This document shows positions 33,498 through 56,594 of a DNA stretch of 64,000 nt, piece by piece. This stretch comes from Mytilisepta virgata (taxonomy: Eukaryota; Mollusca; Bivalvia; Mytilida; Mytilidae), in the NCBI GenBank assembly GCA_028015205.1, contig JAPWFG010000026.1, positions 930,001 to 994,000 on the forward strand, written 5' to 3'. The notes under the pieces were generated by a model. That model saw only the letters and a list, made by a program, of their open reading frames with translations, was not told where the DNA came from and searched no databases. Both the position numbers and the translations under genes were made by a program. Each line of letters starts with the position of its first letter. The stretch's first letter is position 1.

Positions 33498-34043
33498 ACA
33501 TAAATATCAATCCACTTCGTAGATGGCATGTTGTCACATTGACGTGATCCAATAACCGGTATTTTTATACTAAATATGATTTTTATGGTCACACGTGGTA
33601 ACCATTAACAGAAAATGTCCATGTTATGGTTTTGTAAAATTCGAAATATTTACTAAATTGTCCTTTTTAATTACAGGGTATAGGCTATTATGTGTACCTG
33701 TAAATGAGTCTATACCAAAGAATCTCCATAAGTATATTTATATTTAATTTTAAATTTTTTTATACAGTTAGTAATTCATCCATGCTGTATCTACAACCCT
33801 TAAATCCTCAAGCTGTTTCACTATTTAGAACCTGCTATCTTCTTCATATCTTTCGTATGTCGCCTCAAATGCCTATTCCTTAATTAGCAAACGGTAATTA
33901 AGTCATTTTTAATGTTAAAAGACAAACAAAAAGGATCATTAGCTAAAAGCAGTTGTAGAATGATATACCAGAGATCAGTTTCGAATGGAGTTAAAAAAGA
34001 ACTGTTAAACTATACTTAATTATGTATTACTTGTAGGTAAAAA

Positions 34044-35740: not shown

Positions 35741-36180
35741 AAATGCTTGTCTATATACTTGATATACATCTTCATCACTGATGACAAGTACTGATAAAAT
35801 CTAAAGGAAAGGTTTCTCAATACAAGAAGTTAAAATAGTTAATTAGATTCTTATAAACAACGTCTTTTAATTGAAATTTATTGATACCAATTTCGATGCA
35901 CAAGATGTGCACATTTCGTTTATTTACGACACTTCAGTACTGCTCAAGGCCTAAAAAGGTTGAGGCGAAAATTCAAAATGACCGGAAGTGGTGAAGCCAA
36001 CATCATCTAAAGACAGAGCTGTGCACAAGAGAGATACTCTTTATTTTGTAACAGTAAATTTTAAGTATCAGTTTATAGCAATTATCGAAATACTAGCAAC
36101 TGAGATGGGGATGTCCTCCGGGACTTGGAGTCCACCAGCAGTGGCATCGACTCAGTGGAGCCCGGTAAAAACAATAATAT

Positions 36181-37708
36181 TGTAAGACTGTGAGCCCAGT
36201 GTACTGTTAGACACCACTAGGAAAACAGTGTTACAAAATAAGGGGTCCGTTTGTTGTCGGAATTTAGATGAAGTTCATGTATTAGGATTCAACAAATGAC
36301 AAAGGCGTAGCTAAGAATTAATACTTTATTATAATAAAACAAGTAAACAAATATGAAACGCGATTCTTTGTCTTTCCTCTGGTTAGTCAGGAGCAATCAA
36401 ACTTATATTATTCATGTAATACTAACATCTACCGAGCGGTTACTGACAATTCTGGTGCGACTGCAACCCGCACCATAAGTAAAATTATATGATCAACAAA
36501 TATTACTCCACTAGATAAAACAAAATATTCTAACTAATCCCAATAAACATATGTAAGATTTAGTTAACTGCTATAATCAATCCTAGAGCGTCTAATTTAT
36601 TTCTACAACTTGCGGCAACCTGCACCTGAAATCCAGTCGTTAACCAAATAGCTAAATTCGAGCACCCTACGAATTTTACAATACAACAAGAGAACTTTCT
36701 ACTAGATAATTCAATATACAAACAAAATTAACTATTTTTACTACAGTATTTAGCGGTCAACAAGTTTAAATGAACAAGCGCCACCCGCACCCTCAAGGCT
36801 GAGAATGAACACAAAATGGCGACCAAAAATAGAAATATTTTTACAACGTTTATAAAATCCCTTTCTTTGAACACCTAAGCTTTACATCACAAGAACTGAT
36901 AAACAAAGAACTAATTACTACCACTTTTTTATGTTTCTGTTGACTAGGTGACAAAAATATTGAAGGTTGCAACCCGCACCTACAACTAACTGGACAACCC
37001 GCACCTTTGATATACGATATAAACTTCTAGATAAAACTACCCCAAAATAAACAAACTTAGTTATAACTAGTTCGCACCTCCTCCCTGGTTCTGTAATCAG
37101 ACATCATACAACCAATACAATGCAGTAGCTAGCTAAACATTTAATGTGCAGCACCAGAAAACTTAAAGTTTCTACTAGGTCGTAGCCCGTTCTGACGTGT
37201 TGCAACAGCCTTTTATACTGCCGGATGACGTCTTTGTTACTGTGACGTAAAGTTTAAGCTAAGACAACCAATCAAAAACCAGAATTGAAAAGGGGATTTC
37301 CCTTTCTTCAAAACGTAAACAAACAGCGTAAATGTGTTGTACGTGTGTGTGTTTGAAACAGTATTTCTTGGTTATTTATTTATACAAATGGACATATGTT
37401 TTATATGTACAAATGTACGGCTCAGTTATATAAGGATTCGCAGTAGTTTCTGCTAAACTGGATCATTTCTACCCAAACAGGTACAGTTTTAATATGGAAT
37501 ATCCATCATTTCAGTACAAACGTACATCTTGAAATCATGAACTTCAAGATTATCTTACAAACTTTAACTATTCAATTTCTGTCTATAGTCTAATATACTG
37601 ATGAGCAAATATTCACACCTATACTGGTACAAACATGTATGTGGTATCCGAGATAAAAAAATATAAATACAAGACATTTCAATGCATAATGTCCGTGGCA
37701 GCGTAACA
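36181..37708 (-). mobile_element. LTR, duplicated 3' LTR in copy A
   Basis: 1528 bp, TG...CA bounded (plus strand TGTAAGACTG...GCGTAACA). Copied from the 3' LTR at 43921-45448 by the tandem duplication. The flanking sequence on the left is the same gene-flank repeat as in copy B. Because it has no partner 5' LTR, it could be mistaken for a separate insertion. Confidence 0.85.
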
Positions 37709-38313
37709 CTGCCCCCTACCAACTTTGGCATTTGGTCTCCAAATAGAGTGCAGGTAAGTAATTTCTTTGTCTTCATAATTTTATATTTTATAAGGTTTTC
37801 ATACTGTAGTAAATACATTTTTTTTTACTGGTTGGATAACCTGGCAGTACAGTACTTCAAGTGCTTTGATTTTATTCCCGAATTAATTTCTTTGTCATTT
37901 CATAATAACTATATTTCCATTTGTAAATCTTAAACATTAATCAAACATTTCTTTTCCCATACTTGTTTTTGCATTTTTTTTTTTCTTCTTTTGCAGGTGC
38001 AGACATTTACAGGATTATAGCACAGCCAACATAAGAAACTAACACAAGATGAACATAAAATTATTTTATATATTATAATTTCTTGAACATAACAATTGAT
38101 TTATACATATGCTTTCTTTGTATACATTAAACAATTTAACTTTAATTTAGTGTCTCTGTCTTTCGGTGAACATTATTTCCGCCTCCAAGGGTTTATTCCA
38201 TACTACATTTGTCATGTTTGTTTTAACACTACATTTGTTTTACTACTATTTTTGTGATAACACTTCTTCATTTAAATCTAATACTACATATTTACAACAG
38301 TTTACTATCAATT

Positions 38314-39660
38314 CTAATTTCCTTCTTGAATCTCGTTTGGATACAGGTAATTATTTACCTGAGCTATACGTCTCATAATTATTCCCTCCAGACTGAGTAG
38401 CTTATAATATCTAACTTCTGACAAGAGTTCCTGTAAATATCTAATTTCCCTAGGCAGAATGGTTGTATCAATACTTGCTCCATTCCTCAAATAATTGAGA
38501 ATTAATCTGAAATGGGCTGGGTCCCTGTCAAAGAAATAAGTATTGTTGTTTGGACGAAACGGTGACTGGGGAAGAAGCATCAGGGCAAATAAAGAGGTTG
38601 GGCCTGCTCTTAGAACCACCTTACTGGTCTGGAAACATGTCCCACCAACATTCAGAATAATACGCTATTCTTGTATTTCCTGGCATGATAGTAGCAGGGA
38701 TTGTACCACGATATCCAATGGCTGTTCAACTGGAGCAGGTACTCTTTCTTCTACCATGACATCGGATGACATACTTGGTGCCAATCTTACTAAGTGCCTA
38801 ATATCGTCCTGCTGTGTGCTTTTACTGTAACGACTGCTTCCTTTCAGTACCTGAACTTCTACCTTTTCCTTTGGTTTACATCTTTCTGTCTTGTTGCTAA
38901 CTCTACTGCTTTTAGAATGTGTACTGCTTGATGACGATGATCTTGAAGAGGAAGATGATGACGAGGAAGACGATGATGATGATCTACTTCTTTTGCTGCT
39001 TGCATCTTTCTTTGAAATACTACTACTTCTACCTCTTTCTGTAGGCTCACTTGTTTTACTTTTCTTACTGCCACTTCTGTGTCTTTCCTTTTTATTACTA
39101 CTACTTCTCTTTCTTTCCTTATCACTACTACATGTATTTCTACAACCTTTACTGACATTTCTGCTATCATTTTCTTGATCTAACATCGTACTTTCTTCTT
39201 TGTTACCCATGCTACTAATTTCAATCTGCTTAACAGTTTCTGAGGACACTGTCCTGCAAACCTTACTGGCTCTATTTAAACTTTCTTTTTCCTCTAGTCT
39301 CCTTTTCGTTCCTCTATCTTGTATTTCTGTACTCCTTGCTCTCCTTTCTTTCTCCAATAGGTTCGTCTTCTCTTCTCCTGTTGACTTTACTCTCTTTTTC
39401 ACCAATGTAGGAAGAACTTATTTTTCGTATCTTTCAAACTCGTTTTGGGCCTCTTCCCCCCTCTTTCCATCCCTTGTGAACATCATCATGTCTTTTAATG
39501 TCACATCTTTACAACCATGTTGTAAATTTTTCCTGTTGAATATTTTCCTGCAAATTAGACACTTATAGCTGAAGCCAGCATGTTGTTCTTTCAAGTGTCG
39601 TTCCACCCTCCATTTAGTTGGAAATTCTAAGTCTTCACAGACTCCACAAACCCATGCAAT
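38314..39660 (-). pseudogene. Retroelement third frame (zinc finger, RS, BTB), copy A
   Basis: Duplicate of 46051-47397. One continuous frame interrupted by TAA at 39418-39420 (shared with copy B) and by a private TAG at 38665-38667, just before the ILNVGG motif of the BTB domain. Here the RS-rich and BTB regions are joined without the TGA found in copy B. See the copy B entry for domain detail. Confidence 0.75.
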
Positions 39661-39793
39661 CTAAAATTACAAAATTGAATAGCAATTTTTAATTATTATG
39701 TCCGCTTCGAAATTCATTCACTTTTTCATAACTTCGAAAATAATAATAAATTATATATTCAACTATAACAACATTATACAATTTATAAAAATT

Positions 39794-40336
39794 TTAATTG
39801 TCTCCTCTATATGGTTTAAGTTTATTATGGTGCACCACCTTTGGTGCAACTTTTGGACCAATTCTTATTCTGTATAATACATCATTGATTTTGTCCATAA
39901 TTTCTACAGGACTTATCCAAGGTCTTTGTAGTTTGGGGTTCAAACCAACTCTTCGTTGAGGCCTATAATACCAAACTTTGTCCCCCTTTTTATAACTGTT
40001 TTTCCTCATGTTATGATCATAGTATCTCTTCATTCTCTCACTAGAAATTTTCAAATTCTCCCTAGCATATTCATGTATCTCTTCCATTCTTGTCTCTAGT
40101 TCACGTGCAAATTATGTTGAACTTTTATATTTACTTTCAGTCGGTTTCCCCAGTAACAAATCAATGGGCAAATAGATCTCTCGTCCAAACATCATTTTAT
40201 TAGGTGTAAACTTTGTAGTCTCATGTTGTGAGGACGTATATGCCATTAACAAAAGTGGGATATATTCATCCCAATCTCGCTGGTGTTTTGATACAAAACA
40301 AGCTAACATATTTTCTAATGTTCTGTTACACCTTTC
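39794..40336 (-). pseudogene. Integrase C-terminal fragment, cut by the duplication junction
   Basis: Duplicate of the end of the integrase (after the catalytic Glu region): HQRDWDEYIPLLLMAYTSSQ, then the GPY/F-like region and PKVVHHNKLKPYRGDN. A private TAA at about 40105 replaces a Glu codon, and the 5' side ends at the junction 40336/40337. It cannot encode an integrase. Confidence 0.85.
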
Positions 40337-41067
40337 AGAAAGAACGTCTTATAATTTGCATGAATCCTAATTAACATAAGTATTTTAATACTCATATCTC
40401 ATGCGTCTATATGTTGATTCTCAAGTTTAATGACGATTTATCAACAACGAAAATTACCGTCGTTTATACTTCACCCCTCATTATAAACATTAACATTCAA
40501 AATGTCATTTTTTTTTTAAACTGACAATGTTATATGTTCAGAGATAGTACAATGTAGTATAAAGTGTTTGTGTATAGTTAGCCAAAGAGACAAACAAAAC
40601 ATTTATTATTTAAGTGAAATTGAGCATGAATAAAAATGTTGATTTATGAACCGATCAAGTTTAAATATACCATACACAGGTAAATATGCATGTTGAACTC
40701 TGATGTTTTACTTTCTCTTGGAAACAACCTTAATGTAGGTTTGTTTGTATCAAACAAATTGGAAATCAGAACCGTAAGTTTTTAAAACATTATATTATAT
40801 CAAATGCAAAGTAAATCCACTGATTAAACCAAAGATGATAAAGGTTCACCATAACAAATGGACAAATATGGCTGTGGTTGCACCTACAAATTCACTCTGA
40901 GCTCAGACTTACCTGTGCAGTTGAAAACATTTTAAGGCCTGGCATCCACTACATATGTAAAAGTTAAATAAATTTTGTGTTTCAGACAGATAAAATATTT
41001 TGTCTTGTGTCGACTTGCCGCTAGAGTACGGTTTTTTACTATAGCTAAGATCGTAAATCGCTAAATT

Positions 41068-41234
41068 CAGGAGCAGATTCAGACGGGGCGCACCCGGCGA
41101 GTGCCCCCTAGAAAAAGCCACGTTTCTGACAATTCATATGAATTTTTACCATAAAATCGCCGAAAACATTTTTCTATATCTATCATTACCAACACTTCAA
41201 CGCCCCCTAACGTCTATTCCAGGATCCGCGCCTG
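41068..41234. mobile_element. Possible hAT-like MITE (copy B)
   Basis: The duplicate of the element at 33331-33497, carried in the 7.74-kb duplication. Confidence 0.35.
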
Positions 41235-41780
41235 ACATAAATATCAATCCACTTCGTAGATGGCATGTTGTCACATTGACGTGATCCAATAACCGGTATT
41301 TTTATACTAAATATGATTTTTATGGACACACGTGGTAACCATTAACAGAAAATGTCCATGTTATGGTTTTGTAAAATTCGAAATATTTACTAAATTGTCC
41401 TTTTTAATTACAGGGTATAGGCTATTATGTGTACCTGTAAATGAGTCTATACCAAAGAATCTCCATAAGTATATTTATATTTAATTTTAAAATTTTTTAT
41501 ACAGTTAGTAATTCATCCATGCTGTATCTACAACCCTTAAATCCTCAAGCTGTTTCACTATTTAGAACCTGCTATCTTCTTCATATCTTTCGTATGTCGC
41601 CTCAAATGCCTATTCCTTAATTAGCAAACGGTAATTAAGTCATTTTTAATGTTAAAAGACAAACAAAAAGGATCATTAGCTAAAAGCAGTTGTAGAATGA
41701 TATACCAGAGATCAGCTTCGAATGGAGTTAAAAAAGAACTGTAAAACTATACTTAATTATGTATTACTTGTAGGTAAAAA

Positions 41781-43479
41781 ATGGCGACATCTTGTGATTT
41801 TGTTTGTGGTGTATGTGAATATAAAAAAATCTCAAAACCTGCAAATTACTGGTGTTGTGAATGTGATGAAGGGTTGTGTTCGTCTTGTGAGGACCATCAT
41901 GGGTCATCTCGCGCAACCAGGAAACATGGCATTCTATCGCTTGAAAACTATAAAAAGTTACCCTCTGCTGTTGCCAATATAACCAATCACTGCGAAGAAC
42001 ACGATTCAAAATTCCAGAACTACTGTCGACGGCACGACAAACTGTGCTGTCCAGTTTGCATTCCATCGATACATAAGGACTGCAAAGATCTACAAGCTAT
42101 GGAAGAAATAATTAAAACCGCAAAAATGACGTCACTACATGAAAATATGTTGAAAGTTTGAAATGCATTAAGGCAAACATAAGTAGTGTAATTAGAGACC
42201 GTACCGATAACTTGATCTTCATCAAAGAACAACGCAAAAAGTATCAGGAAGAAATTAAACAAATACGAAAGAAATTTATGTCCCATTTGGATGCCCTTGA
42301 ATAACATATGTTACAGAAACTCAGTCACGCAGAACAAAAATCGAAAACTGTGATCGAAACACTTATCACACAACTCGCAGAGAAATCCAAGACAATTGAA
42401 GACTTAGGTAATGATATTGCAGCAATGAAGCAGTTCGCATCACCTCTTCAGACTTTTATTGGAAGTAAAACCATTGACGAGAAAGTCCATAAAGAGGAAC
42501 AGTTCATGAATTCACTGTCAGGAAATAAAAGTCTTCATCAAATCCAACTGAAAGTCATCATTGACGACAAGATCTCGGGTGCGATGTCTTCTATATTACG
42601 TTTTGGTACAGTAACTACTGAAACATCTTCTCCGTCTCTGATCATTACAACAGGAAGCGAAAAACAAGCCCAACTTATGTCTGCTGTACCACCCCGATCT
42701 CCAACGTCCGTCGGAGACATTAAGGTAGCTTTTGAATTTAAAGTTACATTTTTGGGAGCAACGTAATTATCTGTAACTAGCTGCAACTTTTTGCCAGACG
42801 GAAGGATTATATTCGCTGACGATACAATAAAAAAACTTGTTATACTGAAGGAAAACGGTGCTTTGTCAAAACAAATATCTGTCAATTCGTCGAATTATTT
42901 GACATCACTGTTATAGATGACAAAACTGTTGCTGTAGCAGGAAACAATGGAATCCACATCATTAATATCGAAACAGAGAAGAGTGTCAAGGAAATTAACA
43001 CCAACGGTATAATTCATGGTGTAATATATGACAAGGGATCCTTATTGTGCTGTGTTCAAGGGAAGGGAATTCAAAGAATCCAGTTAACGAATAACAGTAT
43101 AACTACTCTAGTGAAACAATATGGGTGGCATCGTGGGACTTATATAACATCATACCGTGACAATATATATCAATCTATTGCATCCGAAGATACTATCACA
43201 TGTTACAATATGAAAGGAGAGATGCAGTGGATGTTTAAGGATACGTCAGTTTTGTCCTATCCAGAAAGTATAACTGTAGATAACAGTGGTAACGTGTACA
43301 TTGCATCGTACAGTAATCATAGTGTCGTCGAACTGTCACCTGATGGAAAGAAGAATAGACAACTACTTAGCGTGGAAGATGGATTGATGTATCCGTTCGC
43401 CATCAATATTGACATGAATAACAGAAAACTGTTAATTACAAATTTCCACGGTGATTTGTTTTTATACAAAATAACTTGA
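41781..43479 (+). pseudogene. B-box/NHL pseudogene (copy 4)
   Basis: Tandem-duplication twin of copy 3. It has the same early frameshift after 126 codons (41781-42161), the same TAA at about 42302, the same TFLGAT end (42308-42766), and the same open C-terminal end (43045-43479). It lacks the 2-nt deletion of copy 3 (AACATATG kept) and differs at a few residues. A truncated two-B-box protein could still be translated from either copy, but nothing shows that it is. Confidence 0.85.
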
Positions 43480-43920
43480 AAATGCTTGTCTATATACTTG
43501 ATATACATCTTCATCACTGATGACAAGTACTGATAAAATCTAAAGGAAAGGTTTCTCAATACAAGAAGTTAAAATAGTTAATTAGATTCTTATAAACAAC
43601 GTCTTTTAATTGAAATTTATTGATACCAATTTCGATGCACAAGATTGTGCACATTTCGTTTATTTACGACACTTCAGTACTGCTCAAGGCCTAAAAAGGT
43701 TGAGGCGAAAATTCAAAATGACCGGAAGTGGTGAAGCCAAAATCATCTAAAGACAGAGCTGTGCACAAGAGAGATACTCTTTATTTTGTAACAGTAAATT
43801 TTAAGTATCAGTTTATAGCAATTATCGAAATACTAGCAACTGAGATGGGGATATCTTCCGGGACTTGGAGTCCACCAGCAGTGGCATCGACTCAGTGGAG
43901 CCCGGTAAAAACAATAATAT

Positions 43921-45448
43921 TGTAAGACTGTGAGCCCAGTGTACTGTTAGACACCACTAGGAAAACAGTGTTACAAAATAAGGGGTCCGTTTGTTGTCGG
44001 AATTTAGATGAAGTTCATGTATTAGGATTCAACAAATGACAAAGGCGTAGCTAAGAATTAATACTTTATTATAATAAAACAAGTAAACAAATATGAAACG
44101 CGATTCTTTGTCTTTCCTCTGGTTAGTCAGGAGCAATCAAACTTATATTATTCATGTAATACTAACATCTACCGAGCGGTTACTGACAATTCTGGTGCGA
44201 CTGCAACCCGCACCATAAGTAAAATTATATGATCAACAAATATTACTCCACTAGATAAAACAAAATATTCTAACTAATCCCAATAAACATATGTAAGATT
44301 TAGTTAACTGCTATAATCAATCCTAGAGCGTCTAATTTATTTCTACAACTTGCGGCAACCTGCACCTGAAATCCAGTCGTTAACCAAATAGCTAAATTCG
44401 AGCACCCTACGAATTTTACAATACAACAAGAGAACTTTCTACTAGATAATTCAATATACAAACAAAATTAACTATTTTTACTACAGTATTTAGTGGTCAA
44501 CAAGTTTAAATGAACAAGCGCCACCCGCACCCTCAAGGCTGAGAATGAACACAAAATGGCGACCAAAAATAGAAATATTTTTACAACGTTTATAAAATCC
44601 CTTTCTTTGAACACCTAAGCTTTACATCACAAGAACTGATAAACAAAGAACTAATTACTACCACTTTTTTATGTTTCTGTTGACTAGGTGACAAAAATAT
44701 TGAAGGTTGCAACCCGCACCTACAACTAACTGGACAACCCGCACCTTTGATATACGATATAAACTTCTAGATAAAACTACCCCAAAATAAACAAACTTAG
44801 TTATAACTAGTTCGCACCTCCTCCCTGGTTCTGTAATCAGACATCATACAACCAATACAATGCAGTAGCTAGCTAAACTTTTAATGTGCAGCACCAGAAA
44901 ACTAAAAGTTTCTACTAGGTCGTAGCCCGTTCTGACGTGTTGCAACAGCCTTTTATACTGCCGGATGACGTCTTTGTTACTGTGACGTAAAGTTTAAGCT
45001 AAGACAACCAATCAAAAACCAGAATTGAAAAGGGGATTTCCCTTTCTTCAAAACGTAAACAAACAGCGTAAATGTGTTGTACGTGTGTGTGTTTGAAACA
45101 GTATTTCTTGGTTATTTATTTATACAAATGGACATATGTTTTATATGTACAAATGTACGGCTCAGTTATATAAGGATTCGCAGTAGTTTCTGCTAAACTG
45201 GATCATTTCTACCCAAACAGGTACAGTTTTAATATGGAATATCCATCATTTCAGTACAAACGTACATCTTGAAATCATGAACTTCAAGATTATCTTACAA
45301 ACTTTAACTATTCAATTTCTGTCTATAGTTTAATATACTGATGAGCAAATATTCACACCTATACTGGTACAAACATGTATGTGGTATCCGAGATAAAAAA
45401 ATATAAATACAAGACATTTCAATGCATAATGTCCGTGGCAGCGTAACA
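43921..45448 (-). mobile_element. 3' LTR of the retrotransposon
   Basis: 1528 bp; in element sense TGTTACGCTG...CAGTCTTACA. Five near-copies of (G)CAACCCGCACC (plus strand) lie at 44203, 44355, 44519, 44709 and 44735. A TATAAAA (minus strand) is at 44951-44957, next to a GACGTCAT. AATAAA-type signals on the minus strand lie near 44065 and 45115. Confidence 0.85.
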
Positions 45449-45460
45449 CTGCCCCCTACC
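45449..45460 (-). other. Polypurine tract
   Basis: In element sense GGTAGGGGGCAG lies immediately before the 3' LTR (TGTTACG). This is the expected place and composition for the plus-strand primer. Confidence 0.7.
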
Positions 45461-46050
45461 AACTTTGGCATTTGGTCTCCAAATAGAGTGCAGGTAAGTA
45501 ATTTCTTTGTCTTCATAATTTTATATTTTATAAGGTTTTCATACTGTAGTAAATACATTTTTTTTACTGGTTGGATAACCTGGCAGTACAGTACTTCAAG
45601 TGCTTTGATTTTATTCCCGAATTAATTTCTTTGTCATTTCATAATAACTATATTTCCATTTGTAAATCTTAAACATTAATCAAACATTTCTTTTCCCATA
45701 CTTGTTTTTGCATTTTTTTTTCTTCTTTTGCAGGTGCAGACATTTACAGGATTATAGCACAGCCAACATAAGAAACTAACACAAGATGAACATAAAATTA
45801 TTTTATATATTATAATTTCTTGAACATAACAATTGATTTATACATATGCTTTCTTTGTATACATTAAACAATTTAACTTTAATTTAGTGTCTCTGTCTTT
45901 CGGTGAACATTATTTCCGCCTCCAAGGGTTTATTCCATACTACATTTGTCATGTTTGTTTTAACACTACATTTGTTTTACTACTATTTTTGTGATAACAC
46001 TTCTTCATTTAAATCTAATACTACATATTTACAACAGTTTACTATCAATT

Positions 46051-47397
46051 CTAATTTCCTTCTTGAATCTCGTTTGGATACAGGTAATTATTTACCTGAG
46101 CTATACGTCTCATAATTATTCCCTCCAGACTGAGTAGCTTATAATATCTAACTTCTGACAAGAGTTCCTGTAAATATCTAATTTCCCTAGGCAGAATGGT
46201 TGTATCAATACTTGCTCCATTCCTCAAATAATTGAGAATTAATCTGAAATGGGCTGGGTCCCTGTCAAAGAAATAAGTATTGTTGTTTGGACGAAACGGT
46301 GACTGGGGAAGAAGCATCAGGGCAAATAAAGAGGTTGGGTCTGCTCTTAGAACCACCTTACTGGTCTGGAAACATGTCCCACCAACATTCAGAATAATAC
46401 GCTCTTCTTGTATTTCCTGGCATGATAGTAGTAGGGATTGTACCACGATATCCAATGGCTGTTCAACTGGAGCAGGTACTCTTTCTTCTACCATGACATC
46501 GGATGACATACTTGGTGCCAATCTTACTCAGTGCCTAATATCGTCCTGCTGTGTGCTTTTACTGTAACGACTGCTTCCTTTCAGTACCTGAACTTCTACC
46601 TTTTCCTTTGGTTTACATCTTTCTGTCTTGTTGCTAACTCTACTGCTTTTAGAATGTGTGCTGCTTGATGACGATGATCTTGAAGAGGAAGATGATGACG
46701 AGGAAGACGATGATGATGATCTACTTCTTTTGCTGCTTGCATCTTTCTTTGAAATACTACTACTTCTACCTCTTTCTGTAGGCTCACTTGTTTTACTTTT
46801 CTTACTGCCACTTCTGTGTCTTTCCTTTTTATTACTACTACTTCTCTTTCTTTCCTTATCACTACTACATGTATTTCTACTACCTTTACTGACATTTCTG
46901 CTATCATTTTCTTGATCTAACATCGTACTTTCTTCTTTGTTACCCATGCTACTAATTTCAATCTGCTTAACAGTTTCTGAGGACACTGTCCTGCAAACCT
47001 TACTGGCTCTATTTAAACTTTCTTTTTCCTCTAGTCTCCTTTTCGTTCCTCTATCTTGTATTTCTGTACTCCTTGCTCTCCTTTCTTTCTCCAATAGGTT
47101 CGTCTTCTCTTCTCCTGTTGATTTTACTCTCTTTTTCACCAATGTAGGAAGAACTTATTTTTCGTATCTTTCAAATTCGTTTTGGGCCTCTTCCCCCCTC
47201 TTTCCATCCCTTGTGAACATCATCATGTCTTTTAATGTCACATCTTTACAACCATGTTGTAAATTTTTCCTGTTGAATATTTTCCTGCAAATTAGACACT
47301 TATAGCTGAAGCCAGCATGTTGTTCTTTCAAGTGTCGTTCCACCCTCCATTTAGTTGGAAATTCTAAGTCTTCACAGACTCCACAAACCCATGCAAT
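46051..47397 (-). CDS. Extra retroelement frame: C2H2-type fingers, RS-rich segment, KCTD-type BTB domain
   Basis: One frame of 449 codons between integrase and the 3' LTR. First part (47397-47158): two Cys/His motifs, CGVC-x13-H-x4-H and CLIC-x10-H-x-C. Middle (47142-46531): basic and Ser-rich, with SRSSSSSSSSSSSSSRSSS-like RS runs and many KKxR motifs, suggesting a nuclear protein. Last part (46521-46054): a BTB/T1 domain of KCTD type (ILNVGGTCFQTS, YFFDRDPAHFRLILNYLR, LLSEVRYYKL). The KCTD family binds Cullin-3 or oligomerises; whether this copy does is unknown. TAA at 47155-47157 (in both copies) and TGA at 46528-46530 (only here) interrupt the frame. There is no signal peptide or membrane segment, so it is not an envelope. 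The frame opens directly after TTGTAATTTTAG, an acceptor-like site, so expression may need splicing. Confidence 0.75.
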
Positions 47398-47415
47398 CTA
47401 AAATTACAAAATTGA
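47398..47415 (-). other. Candidate splice acceptor for the extra frame
   Basis: Minus-strand CAATTTTGTAATTTTAG ends at 47398. The in-frame stop formed by its TAG means the zinc-finger frame can only be entered by splicing or internal initiation. Present identically in copy A (39661-39678). Confidence 0.45.
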
Positions 47416-47530
47416 ATAGCAATTTTTAATTATTATGTCCGCTTCGAAATTCATTCACTTTTTCATAACTTCGAAAATAATAATAAATTATATATTCAAC
47501 TATAACAACATTATACAATTTATAAAAATT

Positions 47531-49453
47531 TTAATTGTCTCCTCTATATGGTTTAAGTTTATTATGGTGCACCACCTTTGGTGCAACTTTTGGACCAATT
47601 CTTATTCTGTATAATACATCATTGATTTTGTCCATAATTTCTACAGGACCTATCCAAGGTCTTTGTAGTTTGGGGTTCAAACCAACTCTTCGTTGAGGCC
47701 TATAATACCAAACTTTGTCCCCCTTTTTATAACTGTTTTTCCTCATGTTATGATCATAGTATCTCTTCATTCTCTCACTAGAAATTTTCAAATTCTCCCT
47801 AGCATATTCATGTATCTCTTCCATTCTTGTCTCTAGTTCACGTGCAAATTCTGTTGAACTTTTATATTTACTTTCAGTCGGTTTCCCCAGTAACAAATCA
47901 ATGGGCAAATAGATCTCTCGTCCAAACATCATTTTATTAGGTGTAAACTTTGTAGTCTCATGTTGTGAGGACGTATATGCCATTAACAAAAGTGGGATAT
48001 ATTCATCCCAATCTCGCTGGTGTTTTGATACAAAACAAGCTAACATATTTTCTAATGTTCTGTTACACCTTTCTACCATTCCATCAGACTGGGGGTACAT
48101 TACTGTGGTTCTAGTTTTCTCAATTCCCAAAATTGAGCACATCTCTTCAAAAACTTTTGACTCAAAATTCTTGCCCTGGTCTGAATGGATCTGCATGGGG
48201 ACCCCAAATCGTGTAATAAATTTATTAACAAGTTTAGATGCTACATTTCGGGCTTCTTGATTTTCTAATGGAATTGCTTCAACCCATTTAGTGAAGTAAT
48301 CACCAAGGACCATTAAATATACATTTCCTGACTTTGTTCGTGGCAGAGGGCCCATAATATCAATTGCAACCCTCTCCAACGGTGCTCCTACATTGTATAG
48401 TCTAAGAGGTGCCTTAGGCTTATTTCTTGGCGTTTTTCTACTATTACATATATCACATTTTTGACACCATTTTTCAACATCACGGTACATATGGTACCAA
48501 TGGTACCTCTGTTTTACTTTGTTCAAAGTTTTCTTTAATCCAAGGTGACCCCCCGTTACACTGTTATGTAACTGGTTTAATACAAGCTCTACTAAGCCTT
48601 GTGGTATTACTATTTGCTTGGTAACTACACCTCCCCTGTTACTTTCAAACATTTTACACAGAATCCCATCAACCAGTTCTAATGAATCCCAACGATTACA
48701 ATAATATTTTACACATGGGCTAAATCTTGAGATTTCTTGCCAACCTGGCTTTTCACCTTTTGCTAGTAACTCTATTAAGGTTTTAAGATTTATATCATTT
48801 CTCTGCTGTGTATACAATAGTTCATTCTCAATCTCTACCTCACTTCCGTATTTTGTATTTTCACTTTCTCTACTTTTTCTTGATTGACTTCTAGTAGTCA
48901 CTACTGCTACCTTGTACTCAGTTTCTTTTTTATTTACTTTCCCTTTATTTCTATTGCTCTCACTAGTTTTTCGTAACTCTCCGACTTTGCAATTATCTTT
49001 TACGTAGTCATGCTTGCCAGTGACTTCCAAAGGACAGCGAACACTGGATTCCAAGCTAGGATTGTTTTTAATTTCAAGGGTTCTACTCTCGCCAACGACT
49101 TCCAAAGGACAGCGAACATTGTAATCCGAGAGATAGACCGACTCTTTTTCAGGATGCCCAGAAGCGTCGCTCCCGCTGGCGACTTCCAATGGACAGCGAA
49201 CACCAAGTTCCGAGAGACGAACTTTTACTTCTGAATTTATGACATCACTGGACGTTACCCCTGCCTGTAACGACTGAACTGGCGGAATATCAGTTCTGCC
49301 GGTGACCTCCAAAGGACAGCCAACACCGGTATCCAGACACTTGAAAATTCCTAAACCAGATTCATGGCTAAATCGCCAACCTTTCGTGCCTGAGAAGAGT
49401 TGCATTTGCCGGTGACCTCCAACGGACAACCAACATCGGAATCCAAAGTACAA
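47531..49453 (-). CDS. Integrase region of pol (-1 frame relative to RT/RNase H)
   Basis: A 640-codon frame. The first ~150 codons (49453 to about 49000) form a linker with four VRCPLEVxG-type repeats. Then a zinc-binding N-terminal domain (HNSVTGGHLG ... CQKCDIC) leads into the catalytic core with the DDE triad: AIDIMGPLP (first Asp), HSDQGKNF (second Asp) and VERCNRTLE (Glu). A GPY/F-like C-terminal region follows (WIGPVEIMDKINDVLYRI), ending YRGDN. The catalytic residues are intact. It overlaps the previous frame at 49351-49453 and is offset by -1, either by a second frameshift or a 1-nt mutation. It joins target DNA to the element's cDNA ends in the nucleus. Confidence 0.85.
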   Translation of the reverse strand: MYFGFRCWLSVGGHRQMQLFSGTKGWRFSHESGLGIFKCLDTGVGCPLEVTGRTDIPPVQSLQAGVTSSDVINSEVKVRLSELGVRCPLEVASGSDASGHPEKESVYLSDYNVRCPLEVVGESRTLEIKNNPSLESSVRCPLEVTGKHDYVKDNCKVGELRKTSESNRNKGKVNKKETEYKVAVVTTRSQSRKSRESENTKYGSEVEIENELLYTQQRNDINLKTLIELLAKGEKPGWQEISRFSPCVKYYCNRWDSLELVDGILCKMFESNRGGVVTKQIVIPQGLVELVLNQLHNSVTGGHLGLKKTLNKVKQRYHWYHMYRDVEKWCQKCDICNSRKTPRNKPKAPLRLYNVGAPLERVAIDIMGPLPRTKSGNVYLMVLGDYFTKWVEAIPLENQEARNVASKLVNKFITRFGVPMQIHSDQGKNFESKVFEEMCSILGIEKTRTTVMYPQSDGMVERCNRTLENMLACFVSKHQRDWDEYIPLLLMAYTSSQHETTKFTPNKMMFGREIYLPIDLLLGKPTESKYKSSTEFARELETRMEEIHEYARENLKISSERMKRYYDHNMRKNSYKKGDKVWYYRPQRRVGLNPKLQRPWIGPVEIMDKINDVLYRIRIGPKVAPKVVHHNKLKPYRGDN

Positions 49454-49460
49454 ACTATCT
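49000..49460 (-). repeat. Five degenerate repeats encoding V(G/R)CPLEV(T/A/V)
   Basis: Plus-strand copies of GACTTCCAAAGGACAGCGAAC-like sequence begin near 49020, 49099, 49181, 49304 and 49423, spaced about 80-125 bp. Each encodes V-x-CPLEV followed by T/A/V and G/S. The first in element order is in the RT/RNase H frame and the other four in the integrase frame. Confidence 0.75.
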
Positions 49461-51843
49461 TCTCAGTAATAACCTTCATTCCCCCTTTCTGTTCTTGGTG
49501 TAATCCGGGCCCTGGATTTACACAAGCTACCATTTTTGGGGATGATCCCTCACTAATCTCATTCCTCTGTTCCATGCATGGTCTATTTTCTTGTTTCTCA
49601 CAATATGGACATACTTGTCCTGCACAGGGACGCCGTGACAACGCATCGGCGTTATTATGTATTCTACCGGCTCTATGCTCAATTTCAAAGTCGTACGTTC
49701 CTAATAATTGTAACCAACGAGCAATTTGTCCTTCAGCTATCTTAAAATTCATTAACCACCTAAGTGCGCCATGATCGCTTCTTACTTTAAACCTTCTCCC
49801 ATACAAGTAGTGATGAAAGTGCAAAATTGACAAAACAACTCCTAAAAGTTCTTTTCTAGTGACACAATAGTGTCTTTCTGGTTTAGACAGTGTCTTACTA
49901 AAATAACCTATAACTTTTTCCTGTTCATTTTGTATTTGTGACAAAACAGCGCCTACGCCTTCATTACTTGCGTCACAGTCAAGAACAAACTGACCCTGAT
50001 CAATTGGATACCCCAAAATTGGAGCTGTGGTAAGTGCATTTTTTAGTGAATCAAATGCTTTCTGACAATCTTTATCCCATACAAATTTCTTATCTAACTC
50101 CGTTAACTTGTGTAGTGGTCTTGCTTGATTTGAAAAATTTTTCACATATCTCCTGTAGTAAGAACATAATCCTAAAAAGGACCTTACCTGCTTTACATTT
50201 TTAGGAACAGGCCAATCAACCACAGCCTTAATTTTCTGTGGATCGGTAGCAATTCCATCTTTACTTACTACGTGACCTAAAAATGTTACCTGGCTCTGCA
50301 GCAAGGTGCACTTTTGTGGGCTTAACTTTAAGTTTGCCTCCCTTAATCTTATAAATACTTGCTCAAGATTTGACAGATGTTCTTCGAACGTTTTTGAAAA
50401 GACAATTATATCGTCTAAATAAACTAAACAAATTTTCCAAGACAAACCAGCCAAAACCTTTTCAACTAATCTTTCAAATGTTTGTGGGCTATTAGCCAAA
50501 CCAAATGGCATACATACAAATTGCCATAATCCACTTCCAGGTATAGAAAATGCCGTCTTTGGACGATCATCAGGGGCTACTGGGACCTGCCAGAAACCTT
50601 GACGCATATCTACAGTCGAATAATATTGGGAATTTTTCAGGGCGTCAAATGTATCATCTATTCTAGGTAAAGGCTGACTGTCTTTTATAGTTACTTCATT
50701 TAACTTTCTATAATCGCAACAAAATCTAACAGACCCATCTTTTTTAGCAACCATCACTATAGGTGAGCACCAAGGCCCACAGGATGGTTCTATGATACCA
50801 TTCTCAGCCATTTCCTTAATTTCCTTTTCAGCGAGTTCCCGCTTCGACAAGGGGATGCGATATGGCCTTTGTTTAATGGGCTTTGCGATGCCTGTATCTA
50901 TCTTATGTTCTATTAAATTTGTCGAACGTATATCCCTTTTAGAAGATGAGAATACATCTGCATATTTTGCTAATAATTCCATTAACCTATTCCCTTCCTC
51001 TTGATTTAGATTCTCCCTACTTCTTTCAAACAGTTCTTTCACGTGTAGCGGCAATTCGCCCTGATTTAAAATTTCAGTTTTATTTAAAGAGCTAACTCTC
51101 TTTATTTCTATTTCCTCAACTGGCTCAATGTTAGCTACTATTGTATCTCTATATACCTTTCGTACCTCACTATTTATATTTATTACTCTTACTGGAATAA
51201 TATCATTTCTAAGATTTATCAGCGATTTAGCTACTAATAATCCACTCCTCGCAATAAAAGTGGAGGCAGCTTCTATAATTCCCTCCGTATTTTGGGTAGA
51301 ATTCCCAATGGTAACACATGGAATAATCATTTCTGATTCAGGAGGAACCTCTGTGTCCTCACATATTGAAATTTTGCAACAAGAATTTTCAATTTCATCT
51401 AATGAGAAACAAGGTATTTTCCTACCATTTAGGGTCATATGCCCCTGACCTATCATTAAATTACACTTATAGCCTTTCAAGAAGTCTAAACCTAATATAC
51501 CATCATTTTCTATATCTGCTATTAAAATTTCATGTTCATACGGTTTGCCTGCAATATTTAACTTCATGTTAGTTTTACCATAAAAAGGAGACAATGCACC
51601 AGTCGCATTGACGAGACTGGCTCTAACAAAGTCTAAAGTAGGCTTTGATTCTAATTTTTCGAAAATTTCTTTTCTAATAACAGTCACGGTGGCACCCGTG
51701 TCAATCAACATTTTAACAAATAAATTATCAACTCTAACATTAATAAAATAACCATCATGCTTTTCAATAAATGTGGTGTTTGAAACCTTGGACCTATTGG
51801 GCTTTTTAGTTGAATTCCGGTCCTCAAACCCAACGCCTAGTAG
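49351..51843 (-). CDS. Protease-reverse transcriptase-RNase H part of pol
   Basis: Open from the frameshift site at 51843 to a stop at 49351 (831 codons). Retropepsin motif LIDTGATVTVI starts at 51708. RT: DYRKLNEVTIKDSQPLPRID, VDMRQGFWQVPV (motif A), FGLANSPQTFERL (motif B) and the catalytic YLDD in VYLDDIIVFSK, all intact. RNase H: LDCDASNEGVGAVLSQ, KELLGVVLSILHFHHYLYG, SDHGALRWLM and NNADALSR. The Cys-rich CPYCEKQ follows. It makes element cDNA in cytoplasmic particles. It is expressed by -1 frameshifting from gag and has no own start: the first ATG at 51711 is inside the protease. Confidence 0.9.
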   Translation of the reverse strand, partial: LLGVGFEDRNSTKKPNRSKVSNTTFIEKHDGYFINVRVDNLFVKMLIDTGATVTVIRKEIFEKLESKPTLDFVRASLVNATGALSPFYGKTNMKLNIAGKPYEHEILIADIENDGILGLDFLKGYKCNLMIGQGHMTLNGRKIPCFSLDEIENSCCKISICEDTEVPPESEMIIPCVTIGNSTQNTEGIIEAASTFIARSGLLVAKSLINLRNDIIPVRVININSEVRKVYRDTIVANIEPVEEIEIKRVSSLNKTEILNQGELPLHVKELFERSRENLNQEEGNRLMELLAKYADVFSSSKRDIRSTNLIEHKIDTGIAKPIKQRPYRIPLSKRELAEKEIKEMAENGIIEPSCGPWCSPIVMVAKKDGSVRFCCDYRKLNEVTIKDSQPLPRIDDTFDALKNSQYYSTVDMRQGFWQVPVAPDDRPKTAFSIPGSGLWQFVCMPFGLANSPQTFERLVEKVLAGLSWKICLVYLDDIIVFSKTFEEHLSNLEQVFIRLREANLKLSPQKCTLLQSQVTFLGHVVSKDGIATDPQKIKAVVDWPVPKNVKQVRSFLGLCSYYRRYVKNFSNQARPLHKLTELDKKFVWDKDCQKAFDSLKNALTTAPILGYPIDQGQFVLDCDASNEGVGAVLSQIQNEQEKVIGYFSKTLSKPERHYCVTRKELLGVVLSILHFHHYLYGRRFKVRSDHGALRWLMNFKIAEGQIARWLQLLGTYDFEIEHRAGRIHNNADALSRRPCAGQVCPYCEKQENRPCMEQRNEISEGSSPKMVACVNPGPGLHQEQKGGMKVITEKIVCTLDSDVGCPLEVTGKCNSSQARKVGDLAMNLV

Positions 51844-51849
51844 TTTCCC
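51790..51849 (-). promoter_or_regulatory. -1 ribosomal frameshift signal: GGGAAAC plus H-type pseudoknot
   Basis: Heptamer G_GGA_AAC at 51849-51843 in the gag frame, two codons before the gag TAG (51839-51837). After a 9-nt spacer, stem 1 TTGGG (51833-51829) pairs with CCCAA (51801-51797). In the loop, GGACC (51823-51819) pairs with GGTCC (51794-51790), making an H-type pseudoknot. Slipping back one base enters the open pol frame with no stop. Confidence 0.75.
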
Positions 51850-53063
51850 TTTTTACCACCATTTTGGTTGTCTTGCATATTATATTTATTTTGGTGGAAG
51901 TTGTCACCCCTTCTTTGGTGAAAACTTTGTCTATTTCTATATTGACCCGTGCCAAACTTGGATGTCTGATTTATCTCATGTTTATTGTATCTGACATTTT
52001 TAGATAATTCTGATACAGTTCGTTCTAAGTTCTTAATTCGTGTATCAACTAAATTCTCATTTTGAGACACGTGATCAACACTTCTGACAGGTTTTCCCCT
52101 TTGTCTATCAGCTACTCTTAATGCCTCTAACTTAACTGCTATATTTTCAGCTTCGGTCATAGTTTTAGGACCGAGTTCTTTTAATCTTAATCTTATTTCA
52201 CTTTCAGGTATTGCATCTATGAAATAATCTATTGCCAATGTATCGGCCACCTCTGATGTAACATTCCTATATGCTTTTCTGGTTAGCTTTTTTATACTTT
52301 CTACTAACTCAGGTATTGTCTCATTCCTTCCTCTAACTTTACCCTGCAGTTCAGCTTTAAATAGCTCGCTGCGATTTACAGAACCATATCTATTTCGTAA
52401 TGCATCAACTAAGGCGTTAAAATCTCTACATTTATTTTCATCAAGTTCCGCTAGTATTGTTCTAGCCCTACCAGACAAACTACTTGCCAAAGCTAAAGAT
52501 TTTACATTATAGTTCCAACCATTAAGCTCTGCCAAAATTCGGAACTGTGCGAGGTATTCGTCAAAGTCATCTGTACCGTCATATATTTGAGGTTTAATTT
52601 TTAAATTTCCAACTTCACTTCCATTTGCGACATTTAATTCTTGTATTTTATTTATATTTGAATTTGAATTTTCATTGATTTCTCTTTGTCTAGTGCCAAT
52701 TGAAATTCCCCCACCAAGATTTTGAAATGGATCATTTTCGGTTTGACGAAGATTTTCGTCATTTCCAATTTCTCCTGATTGCCTGACTTCTAATTTCTTT
52801 CCTAAAATACCAACTTTTTCTCTTAACTCATTTACTACATCCAATACCTCACCCTTCATAATCTGCATATTTTTCTGAATACCAGAATTTAATAAGTACA
52901 TTTGTTTTGATAACGTACTTTCAATTTGATTTTCACTACTAGACCTACAACTTGGAACGTTGGAACTTTGACCAGTAGTGTTTTCATCACAGTCTTCAAA
53001 GTTTTCATTTTCTAAGCAATCAGTGTTCACTTTAAATGTTACTTCCTCATCTGAACTCTCCAT
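51837..53063 (-). CDS. Gag polyprotein
   Basis: 408 residues, starting with an ATG 99 nt after the 5' LTR. An acidic, Asn/Ser-rich N-terminus is followed by a coiled-coil-like stretch at about 50-90. A capsid-type domain lies at about 150-310, with the Ty3/Gypsy gag pattern YDGTDDFDEYLAQFRILAEL and LRNRYGSVNRSELFKAELQ. The C-terminus is Asn/Gln/Gly and Arg/Lys-rich (QYRNRQSFHQRRGDN). There is no CCHC zinc knuckle; the basic tail probably binds RNA instead. It forms the particle core. The pol frame is reached through the frameshift at its last codons. Confidence 0.85.
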   Translation of the reverse strand: MESSDEEVTFKVNTDCLENENFEDCDENTTGQSSNVPSCRSSSENQIESTLSKQMYLLNSGIQKNMQIMKGEVLDVVNELREKVGILGKKLEVRQSGEIGNDENLRQTENDPFQNLGGGISIGTRQREINENSNSNINKIQELNVANGSEVGNLKIKPQIYDGTDDFDEYLAQFRILAELNGWNYNVKSLALASSLSGRARTILAELDENKCRDFNALVDALRNRYGSVNRSELFKAELQGKVRGRNETIPELVESIKKLTRKAYRNVTSEVADTLAIDYFIDAIPESEIRLRLKELGPKTMTEAENIAVKLEALRVADRQRGKPVRSVDHVSQNENLVDTRIKNLERTVSELSKNVRYNKHEINQTSKFGTGQYRNRQSFHQRRGDNFHQNKYNMQDNQNGGKKGNY

Positions 53064-53161: not shown

Positions 53162-54688
53162 TGTAAGACTGTGAGCCCAGTGTACTGTTAGACACCACTA
53201 GGAAAACAGTGTTACAAAATAAGGGGTCCGTTTGTTGTCGGAATTTAGATGAAGTTCATGTATTAGGATTCAACAAATGACAAAGGCGTAGCTAAGAATT
53301 AATACTTTATTATAATAAAACAAGTAAACAAATATGAAACGCGATTCTTTGTCTTTCCTCTGGTTAGTCAGGAGCAATCAAACTTATATTATTCATGTAA
53401 TACTAACATCTACCGAGCGGTTACTGACAATTCTGGTGCGACTGCAACCCGCACCATAAGTAAAATTATATGATCAACAAATATTACTCCACTAGATAAA
53501 ACAAAATATTCTAACTAATCCCAATAAACATATGTAAGATTTAGTTAACTGCTATAATCAATCCTAGAGCGTCTAATTTATTTCTACAACTTGCGGCAAC
53601 CTGCACCTGAAATCCAGTCGTTAACCAAATAGCTAAATTCGAGCACCCTACGAATTTTACAATACAACAAGAGAACTTTCTACTAGATAATTCAATATAC
53701 AAACAAAATTAACTATTTTTACTACAGTATTTAGCGGTCAACAAGTTTAAATGAACAAGCGCCACCCGCACCCTCAAGGCTGAGAATGAACACAAAATGG
53801 CGACCAAAAATAGAAATATTTTTACAACGTTTATAAAATCCCTTTCTTTGAACACCTAAGCTTTACATCACAAGAACTGATAAACAAAGAATTAATTACT
53901 ACCACTTTTTTATGTTTCTGTTGACTAGGTGACAAAAATATTGAAGGTTGCAACCCGCACCTACAACTAACTGGACAACCCGCACCTTTGATATACGATA
54001 TAAACTTCTAGATAAAACTACCCCAAAATAAACAAACTTAGTTATAACTAGTTCGCACCTCCTCCCTGGTTCTGTAATCAGACATCATACAACCAATACA
54101 ATGTAGTAGCTAGCTAAACTTTTAATGTGCAGCACCAGAAAACTTAAAGTTTCTACTAGGTCGTAGCCCGTTCTGACGTGTTGCAACAGCCTTTTATACT
54201 GCCGGATGACGTCTTTGTTACTGTGACGTAAAGTTTAAGCTAAGACAACCAATCAAAAACCAGAATTGAAAAGGGGATTTCCCTTTCTTCAAAACGTAAA
54301 CAAACAGCGTAAATGTGTTGTACGTGTGTGTGTTTGAAACAGTATTTCTTGGTTATTTATTTATACAAATGGACATATGTTTTATATGTACAAATGTACG
54401 GCTCAGTTATATAAGGATTCGCAGTAGTTTCTGCTAAACTGGATCATTTCTACCCAAACAGGTACAGTTTTAATATGGAATATCCATCATTTCAGTACAA
54501 ACGTACATCTTGAAATCATGAACTTCAAGATTATCTTACAAACTTTAACTATTCAATTTCTGTCTATAGTTTAATATACTGATGAGCAAATATTCACACC
54601 TATACTGGTACAAACATGTATGTGGTATCCGAGATAAAAAATATAAATACAAGACATTTCAATGCATAATGTCCGTGGCAGCGTAACA
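53162..54688 (-). mobile_element. 5' LTR of the retrotransposon
   Basis: 1527 bp, TG...CA bounded, about 99.6% like the 3' LTR. A minus-strand TATAAAA at 54192-54198, beside GACGTCAT, is the likely core promoter for gag-pol RNA. Followed by the target duplication ATAT at 54689-54692. Confidence 0.85.
54192..54212 (-). promoter_or_regulatory. LTR core promoter (TATA box with CRE-like site)
   Basis: Minus strand reads GACGTCATCCGGCAG then TATAAAAGG. A TATA box about 490 nt into the LTR with an upstream CRE-like half-site is a plausible polymerase II promoter. The same sequence is at 44951-44972 in the 3' LTR and in the copy A LTR. Confidence 0.5.
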
Positions 54689-56594
54689 ATATTATTACCA
54701 TAAATGTGCACATTTCGTCGATTTACGACTCATCAGTTGTGCTCAGCGCCTAAAATGTTGAAAACGAAAACAAAAATCTAAAAGGCTGAAGATTAAATTT
54801 AAAAAAAAGCCAAAATGACCGGAAGTGGTGATGCCAAAACCAGCTAAAGACAGAACTGAGCACGAGGGAAATACACAAATTTTACAATTTTGTAACAGTA
54901 AATTTTAAGTTTCAATTTGCAAGATATGTTTTCCTTCTTCCAGAGGTAAAATACGTTTCATCGAACTGAGTATCTGCCATTGTCTATATTTAATGCAAGC
55001 TTTAACAATATCAGTTTGAAAAAAAAAGAGGAAAACTGTTCTCCAAAACTACCGGTAAATTTTACTCCCCTCTGTTTTATCCTATATCCACCCAATTTTG
55101 TTGTATACAGTATAAAATTCAAAGTTTGACTGGCCCATTATTCAAAAGGGTACTTGGGTAAATACAGGTACATGTAACTATTGAAGGCGAAGTTGCCAAA
55201 TTTACAATCTATTAATTTTATCAATTTGATATTAGTTTTCCAATGTAAAATGCTATTTTTGTAGAAAGATCAAGGAGCGAAATATTTCGGTAAGTCAATA
55301 ACCACTGGAGGAAAGATGTGGTTCGTAACTTAACTTACTCATAGCCAACATAATTTTGAACCAATTTCTGTGAAAACAAAGAATGCACAGAATATAACTT
55401 TGGCATGGTCTCTTAATGACACCAATTGACTTTTTTATATTTTGATAGATAAAGATAATTGGATTTTCTACATCAAGCTTCTATTACCGAATTATACAGT
55501 ATTCATTTTTAGAATTGTGCAATGATGTTCGTAACTATAAAATCATATTTATACAGTTTGAATTTACGCGCATCAACGTCTTATATATATATATTGTAAG
55601 TTACGTAATCCTTTGATCTTTCAAAAAGTGTGTATAAAACGCAATTAAAAGTATAATACCCTCTAAAATAGGAATTTAGTAATTTTTCATCAATCAAAAA
55701 GAATGAAAAGTGGATTTCTGTCACCTTGAGCCTTCAGGAAACCTTAATTCGGTGCAGTTTTTGTTTTCACCGACATTCAAAATTATGTTGGCTGTGCGCA
55801 ACCACAGCTTTTCCCCAGTGAATAACGATAGGACGGTTTTTAAAGAGTTTGCTTAATTATGAAATAATGAAATGTACCGGCGTTTATATGCCTCAGCGAA
55901 TACAAAAATAAGCACGTTTTTGTTTTCTTTTTTATCGAAATGTAAAATATAATTTTTTACAGACTTTCATTAAAAGAAGCAACCTTGCAATTTTTGGGGG
56001 TGGTGGTACGTGCTGGGCTAAAAAAAAGTGACCCTTGATCCTGTAGTTTTTCCATGTTCGTATTTTTCAAAAAATGTTCATTAATTCTAAAATTAATGTA
56101 GTTTTTCCCTGTGCCTTTCTTTCCAAAAAAATTATTAATTCTAAAATTAAAATTTTGTTATGAAACAAAAATTGCAAAATATAGCATGATTTTAATTGGT
56201 CTCAATTTTTTTATGATTTTTGATAATTATGCAATGAAGCACAATGGTAACTGACATAAAAATGAAATACAATTTTTTTAAAAATTCTAAAAGACATTGC
56301 AAAATGCCGTTGTGATTCACTATTTGTATCAATGAATTTCCCTCCTCTAATTAATTTGAATTCAACTGATAGTTTCCGTAAATTTTTTTTATTTCGAACT
56401 ACTGATTTAGCAGTGTTTTATAACCTTTATTTACATTCATAGGCATACCTTCTAGATACCTCTTTAATGCTATAATAAGGTATATTTGTGCAATTCTGTC
56501 CAACCGCTATTTAAAGATTTAAAAATAAAGGCCAAACTTCAACTAGTTTGAAATTGAGTAAATAGAAAATCACGAAATACAATGAAAATTGAAA

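Follow-up and report, generated by a model that had tools for sequence, protein, structure and literature searches.

A zinc-finger and KCTD-type BTB third gene, with a predicted spliced message, in a clade of Ty3/Gypsy-type retrotransposons of the bivalve Mytilisepta virgata

Errantiviruses such as Drosophila gypsy carry a third gene, env, between integrase and the 3' long terminal repeat (LTR), and passages of PMC4276936 describe its expression from a spliced subgenomic mRNA. Here, a 64,000-nucleotide stretch of Mytilisepta virgata DNA was analysed (assembly GCA_028015205.1, contig JAPWFG010000026.1, positions 930,001 to 994,000 of the forward strand; the whole stretch is hereafter the window), in which an LTR retrotransposon carries a third open reading frame (ORF3) in the same position. 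Its message is predicted to be spliced, as that of gypsy env is, but ORF3 differs from errantivirus env in encoding zinc fingers, a linker and a BTB domain, with no Pfam envelope domain, and in having its predicted start codon ahead of gag, likely within the LTR. Plant LTR retrotransposons likewise have extra ORFs between pol and the 3' LTR that are kept in most copies of a family; those treated in the abstract of PMC7264820 are env-like sense or antisense ORFs (Grande, RIRE2, Retand), and no BTB or KCTD protein is named there. Chromoviruses are also a Ty3/Gypsy lineage that gained a host-type domain (passages of PMC12440569 and PMC2774666), although their chromodomain lies at the integrase end, whereas the ORF3 clade has its host-type domain on a separate third gene; a Pfam scan found no chromodomain in the window integrase or in the pol of locus L032. 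ORF3 and the KCTD family (KCTD5, KCTD10, KCTD13) have the BTB fold in common, but KCTD proteins, according to part of PMC5664961, combine an N-terminal BTB with variable C-termini, whereas the ORF3 BTB is C-terminal, behind the fingers.

Kojima (2025; PMC12440569) gives chromodomains and envelopes as acquired parts, and BTB or KCTD is not mentioned in the main text of that paper; the main texts of a mollusc survey (PMC6238403) and an annelid survey (PMC8220671) mention neither BTB nor zinc fingers nor a third ORF. In the open-licence literature, without RepBase reports, searches for BTB/KCTD or additional finger ORFs in LTR retrotransposons found no description of this gene, in line with the preliminary description of this DNA, made from the sequence alone, which knew of no Ty3/Gypsy lineage with such cargo. 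A gene added in the env position most often encodes an envelope or is an ORF without explanation; the ORF3 clade keeps a gene with a recognisable host-type architecture and has recent insertions.

Domains, distribution and origin of the third gene

The ORF3 frame occupies positions 46051-47397 of the minus strand, between the integrase end (47531) and the 3' LTR (43921-45448), and thus stands in the env position, as had been reported. Its parts, in the order of translation, are the following:

47158..47397, minus strand: finger part (C2H2 and C2HC-like pair, then a helix), from Pfam and pattern
47155..47157, minus strand: in-frame stop common to both window copies, read from the sequence
46531..47154, minus strand: Ser-rich basic linker, from sequence and composition
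46528..46530, minus strand: in-frame stop found in only this copy, read from the sequence
46054..46527, minus strand: BTB part, from Pfam, with the BTB_2 match at about 46129-46398

The KCTD-type BTB recognised earlier at the end of the frame was confirmed by the profile search, in which the piece 46054-46527 matched Pfam BTB_2 with 65.3 bits (E 6e-18; cut-off 21.4). By sequence, its best relatives of solved structure are KCTD5, KCTD10 and Kv T1 domains. Structure prediction of the database protein P0044, a relative that has fingers, linker and BTB (27 aligned rows), returned a confident BTB, moderate fingers and a low-confidence linker, and the predicted BTB fold matches KCTD13, KCTD10, KCTD15, KCTD5 and KCTD1. 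A KCTD-type BTB is supported by the profile and by the predicted fold of this relative; in the ORF3s read, no other domain follows it, so that it is not N-terminal as in KCTD proteins. The finger piece (47158-47397) reached 23.6 bits for zf-C2H2_4, under the cut-off of 27, and the two Cys/His fingers described previously are borne out by the pattern C-x2-C...H-x3-5-H / C-x2-C...H-x-C, which was present in 14 of the 18 loci scanned and not matched in L010, L030, L015 and L017. What had been called a long Arg/Ser tract is Ser-rich and basic but holds 13 RS/SR dipeptides versus a shuffle mean of 12.9, i.e., no excess over composition. No envelope domain was found in ORF3 by Pfam, which gave BTB_2 and sub-threshold fingers only and was run without a membrane-segment computation.

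The genome searched comprised 1.03 Gb in 109 contigs, and the copy numbers, which rest on BTB and integrase searches, are lower bounds. With the window BTB piece as query, at least 95 places were found. In 24 of them the BTB lies in a stop-free stretch of 346 amino acids or more, and in 18 this stretch reaches 400 or more; host-like places were excluded from the 24, not each of which was confirmed to start at the acceptor. A single open frame from the fingers through the BTB was read in nine loci (L009, L011, L020, L021, L022, L023, L024, L032 and L042). The integrase search gave at least 70 rows (69 of 4230 first-look candidates scored; in a few cases one element accounts for two rows), and by coordinates 38 of the 70 have a BTB match at most 4 kb downstream on the same strand. 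BTB presence splits by integrase identity, with 37 of 38 rows at 46% or above versus one of 32 at 45% or below. Copies lacking the segment, in which the preliminary description saw the sign of a chance local insertion, were sought: the sole exception at 46% or above, L058 (C12:46339734, 60%), keeps the fingers and linker, which are followed by a nested Gypsy insertion.

In the 38 scored rows, on many contigs, ORF3 lies mostly 1.0-1.7 kb behind integrase on the same strand, and 39 of the 95 BTB places pair with a scored integrase row. The remaining BTB places examined were ORF3 copies with an unscored integrase, fragments, or host KCTD- or Kv-like genes. A pol check of fifteen loci (L031-L045) revealed reverse transcriptase (RT) and/or integrase in ORF3 orientation in 14, with integrase only in L042 and L045, and LTRs enclose ORF3 in five families. 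On this sequence evidence, ORF3 is a third gene common to several diverged lineages, present throughout the scored clade members. IMG/VR scans found no ORF3 relative among viral contigs.

The window and L032 pol proteins are 50-51% identical, and both families have ORF3. RT and BTB distances correlate across 13 elements, some of which are mutual close relatives (Mantel r 0.70, 0 of 9999 permutations). The L009 ORF3 shares 56% of 436 aligned positions with the M. trossulus model P0059, and the L032 ORF3 shares 53% of 423 with database protein P0132. In four other families the two LTRs have an identity of 99.66-99.87%, although three of these pairs are truncated where the fetched sequence stops; a search for an LTR pair in the L050/L023 family found none. 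As judged from these identities, the lineages are old, the copies are young and the clade has recent insertions. The L020 and L023 BTBs differ by a non-synonymous distance (dN) of 0.20 and a synonymous distance (dS) of 4.2, with a linker ratio of 0.33, and the L009-L010 BTB dN/dS ratio is 0.27. Because dN/dS is mostly saturated or derived from few changes, the conservation argument leans on open frames and co-divergence. A chance frame is ruled out by the profile scores and the genome-wide recurrence, and a recent local capture by the 37 of 38 integrase places with a BTB together with co-divergence.

Of the less related elements that lack a BTB match, five (L053-L057) were read. In four, from three families (L053-L056), inspection by eye shows two fingers in ORF3, which Pfam places just below its cut-offs, and different tails (596 amino acids in total in L053 and L054, 425 in L055 and 290 in L056); an acceptor-like site is present, with an ATG directly after it. 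Because neighbouring lineages have finger ORF3s without a BTB, the fingers and the tail appear older than the BTB. A 17-row integrase tree contains a branch, with support 92/94, that has all BTB-clade rows, L058 among them, on one side. The BTB was probably gained once, at the end of a pre-existing finger ORF3, and the neighbouring lineages may represent the stage preceding its addition; its loss in the neighbours is a possible alternative, given that the trees are unrooted. The host-domain capture proposed earlier is partly supported: the BTB is of KCTD type, but it is not one family's cargo and belongs to a gene of several diverged lineages, with fingers that look older. As separate observations, the 596-amino-acid ORF3s of L053 and L054 have a long tail without a Pfam match, and in L057 a 195-amino-acid GDSL-lipase-like ORF (L057:3548-4132, plus strand; Lipase_GDSL_2 E 1e-6, just below cut-off) lies downstream of a Gypsy integrase.

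Predicted spliced message and start mini-exon

Two predicted features of the window element bear on the expression of ORF3:

47398..47412, minus strand: predicted 3' splice site attttgtaattttag, directly abutting the finger exon in phase 0, from an acceptor scan
54059..54085, minus strand: predicted start mini-exon MSDYRTREE, then GTGCGA (phase 0), inside the 5' LTR; also in the 3' LTR at 44818-44844

A T-rich stretch ending in AG was read 12-18 nucleotides ahead of the first finger Cys, in phase 0, in all 14 loci with the finger pair, and the same 14 loci have no in-frame ATG between acceptor and fingers (out-of-frame ATGs occur), so that the start would have to come from an upstream exon. 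The 5' regions of seven families were scanned for an ATG followed by a phase-0 donor, and exactly one MS(D/Q) mini-exon with such a donor was found in five of them, versus one MS(D/Q) mini-exon in 2100 dinucleotide shuffles. Besides that of the window element, the peptides are MSQAQLASAVAM (L047), MSQAQLKSDVAM (L050), MSQQQIKSDIGM (L049) and MSDYQNQAAK (L048). Independently of the MS(D/Q) rule, the 36-nucleotide mini-exons of L047, L050 and L049 are 58-75% identical, versus 24-36% in the 100 nucleotides on either side. The mini-exon lies inside the matched LTR in the window element and L048, and in the M. trossulus model P0059 the part that aligns to the L009 ORF3 is immediately preceded by eight additional residues, MSDVMSLK. 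We predict that splicing produces the ORF3 message and that its start codon likely lies in the element's own LTR, so that the mode of expression is predictable from sequence.

Two other routes were considered and rejected. For a start in gag with a donor inside gag, no consistent donor was found near the gag ATG across families. A frameshift or read-through from pol to ORF3 does not serve as a general route, since stops and 133 nucleotides separate the window integrase from the fingers; this rejection does not extend to L032, in which the pol and ORF3 frames overlap by 17 nucleotides.

Possible function and competing explanations

In the proposed mechanism, a spliced subgenomic mRNA would join the start mini-exon, likely in the LTR, to the acceptor just 5' of the fingers, giving a third-gene product in which a Ser/basic linker, predicted to be disordered, connects a zinc domain of two fingers with the KCTD-type BTB at the C-terminus. 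This product would self-assemble, bind nucleic acid (element RNA or DNA) in the nucleus and act as an accessory factor. Taken as a whole, from the clade-wide ORF3 through the spliced message to the self-assembling nuclear protein, we give this reading somewhat better than an even chance. Its most likely form is a Rev-like step, in which a multimerising nucleic-acid-binding ORF3 would help unspliced genome RNA leave the nucleus, a role favoured because an element that splices its transcript must also export unspliced RNA. Rev/Rex and Vif of complex retroviruses are accessory proteins made from spliced messages; they are compared with ORF3 by analogy only, and no sequence relation is claimed. 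More tentatively, the clade may have independently evolved control in the style of complex retroviruses, with an LTR start mini-exon spliced over gag-pol to a regulatory gene, in which a host KCTD-type BTB, multimerising or CUL3-recruiting, was added to an older finger accessory protein that neighbouring lineages also have. Two questions become directly testable with this clade: whether accessory proteins of the Rev or Vif kind are used by invertebrate retrotransposons, and by what route a host domain is acquired and retained in a mobile element.

Several points weigh against the proposal. Neither window copy of ORF3 is intact, as each has two in-frame stops, one common and one private, which were left unrepaired in the analysis; the single open frame of the preliminary description does not hold for the window. 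The donor matrix was a generic one, the MS(D/Q) rule was fixed only after the peptides had been seen, and no MS(D/Q) mini-exon was found in two of the seven families (L046 and L052). In L047 the mini-exon spans the point at which the LTR match is truncated, in L049 it lies outside the truncated match, and in L050 no LTR pair was found. Absence of the BTB at 45% integrase identity or below derives from the window-BTB search, with five of 31 places read. In the integrase tree, L058 was counted with the BTB clade despite its truncated BTB, and long branches were flagged among the outgroups. The tree of retrotransposon and host BTBs suggested in the preliminary description does place the former on one side, but with support of 48/93 only and with the 'retro' label of 20 database rows inferred, and the donor KCTD gene was not identified by it. 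Synonymous sites are saturated in the majority of the other family comparisons, and the near-identical pairs L009-L011 and L020-L021 give dN/dS ratios of 1.2-1.6 from few changes. SR-protein identity of the linker was rejected as weak, since among ten linkers counted a clear RS/SR excess is present only in L032 and L042 (L009 is borderline, with 37 of 500 shuffles as high). The choice of a Rev-like role is itself made by analogy.

The main rival to the Rev-like role, which we regard as rather unlikely and which takes up the ubiquitination role suggested in the preliminary description, is a CUL3 adaptor, in which the BTB would recruit Cullin-3 and the fingers bind a host factor that is then ubiquitinated and removed; lentiviral Vif, which works through Cullin-5, serves as the model. 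The closest folds include KCTD13, KCTD10 and KCTD5, in keeping with such an adaptor, but KCTD15, KCTD1 and KCTD16 are also among the fold matches. According to passages of PMC5664961, most KCTD BTB structures are oligomers, and Cul3 binding is a property of some KCTD BTBs but not of all: of five KCTD-family BTBs there, four bound Cul3, whereas KCTD1 and KCTD16 have the same fold yet show no Cul3 binding. The KCTD5 F128A/L161R passage of PMC11084553 is insufficient to score a CUL3 interface. Moreover, neighbouring lineages have finger ORF3s devoid of a BTB, which argues that the BTB is not the core of the protein. Less probable still is an ORF3 that tethers the pre-integration complex to chromatin or regulates its own LTR, with fingers on DNA and the BTB as oligomeriser, like host BTB zinc-finger factors. 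C2H2-type fingers beside a domain that multimerises in relatives, and several Lys/Arg-rich linkers, speak in favour of this; the BTB of host BTB zinc-finger factors is, however, unlike the KCTD type.

The stop codons in both window copies would agree with a host KCTD segment picked up once by chance and drifting without function, but this explanation, to which we attach next to no weight, is refuted by the 37 of 38 integrase places, the open frames in several lineages and the correlated divergence. We find it equally hard to credit that ORF3 frames are host genes beside which elements landed. Mytilus and Ruditapes annotations do list several relatives as host proteins, and L043 looks like a host gene; for the clade, L043 apart, the idea is refuted by the constant strand and the spacing of mostly 1.0-1.7 kb behind integrase in the 38 scored rows, and LTRs surround ORF3 in five families. 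In L043, a 537-amino-acid frame (L043:232-1842, minus strand) with a charged coiled-coil-like stretch (by eye) has a BTB_2-like end, and neither fingers nor a pol match were found in the 4.9 kb read; it is probably a host gene.

Layout of the window element and named relatives

The remaining features of the window element are as follows:

54689..54692, no strand: target-site duplication ATAT (4 bp), right copy, from flanking sequence
53162..54688, minus strand: 5' LTR, with ends TGTTACGC...CTTACA on the element strand; 99.67% identical to the 3' LTR over 1529 columns by self-BLAST
51837..53063, minus strand: gag, 408 amino acids, Retrotrans_gag, from Pfam
49351..51711, minus strand: protease, reverse transcriptase and RNase H, from Pfam
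47531..49453, minus strand: integrase (H2C2, rve, p58_C), from Pfam
45449..45460, minus strand: purine-rich stretch preceding the 3' LTR, read from the sequence, which we take to be the polypurine tract
43921..45448, minus strand: 3' LTR, from self-BLAST and ends read
43917..43920, no strand: target-site duplication ATAT (4 bp), left copy, from flanking sequence
36180..40336, minus strand: second copy of the element's 3' half (LTR, ORF3, integrase end), from a 7.7-kb tandem duplication

The pol order protease, RT, RNase H, integrase, established by Pfam in the window element and L032, is the Ty3/Gypsy (Metaviridae) arrangement, and gene order and Pfam matches support the window element as a Ty3/Gypsy-type LTR retrotransposon, as previously recognised. 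Window integrase and RT are in different frames; other close copies have long pol frames (1414-1442 amino acids). The LTR termini of the window element, the one family for which they were read, are TG...CA, which together with the 4-bp duplication agrees with Ty3/Gypsy elements (TG...CA ends, duplications of 4-6 bp) and rejects membership of Troyka, defined in the abstract of PMC12440569 by CG...CG ends and a 3-bp duplication. The interval from RNase H to integrase contains five repeats of about 43 nucleotides (49013-49447, minus strand) that are translated into V(G/R)CPLEV motifs, possibly a spacer or protease sites.

The ORF3 frame occurs twice in the window because the 3' half of the element is duplicated in tandem (32601-40336 and 40337-48073, 99.57% identical). 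This 7.7-kb duplication, either real or an assembly artefact, also takes in a B-box-like host gene (by eye, 41781-43479).

The closest named ORF3 relatives are from Mytilus and Ruditapes, in which the ORF3-like proteins P0077, P0118, P0130 and P0131 are annotated as serrate, flap endonuclease 1-like, CWC22 and nipped-B-like, names that probably follow the low-complexity linker. In mussel and clam annotations, gene models that bear the names 'serrate RNA effector', 'flap endonuclease 1-like' and 'nipped-B-like' may be retrotransposon ORF3s. Two further ORF3-like BTB proteins, P0046 and P0109, are labelled as Candidatus Thiodiazotropha proteins from metagenome-assembled genomes and presumably represent host clam DNA in symbiont bins.
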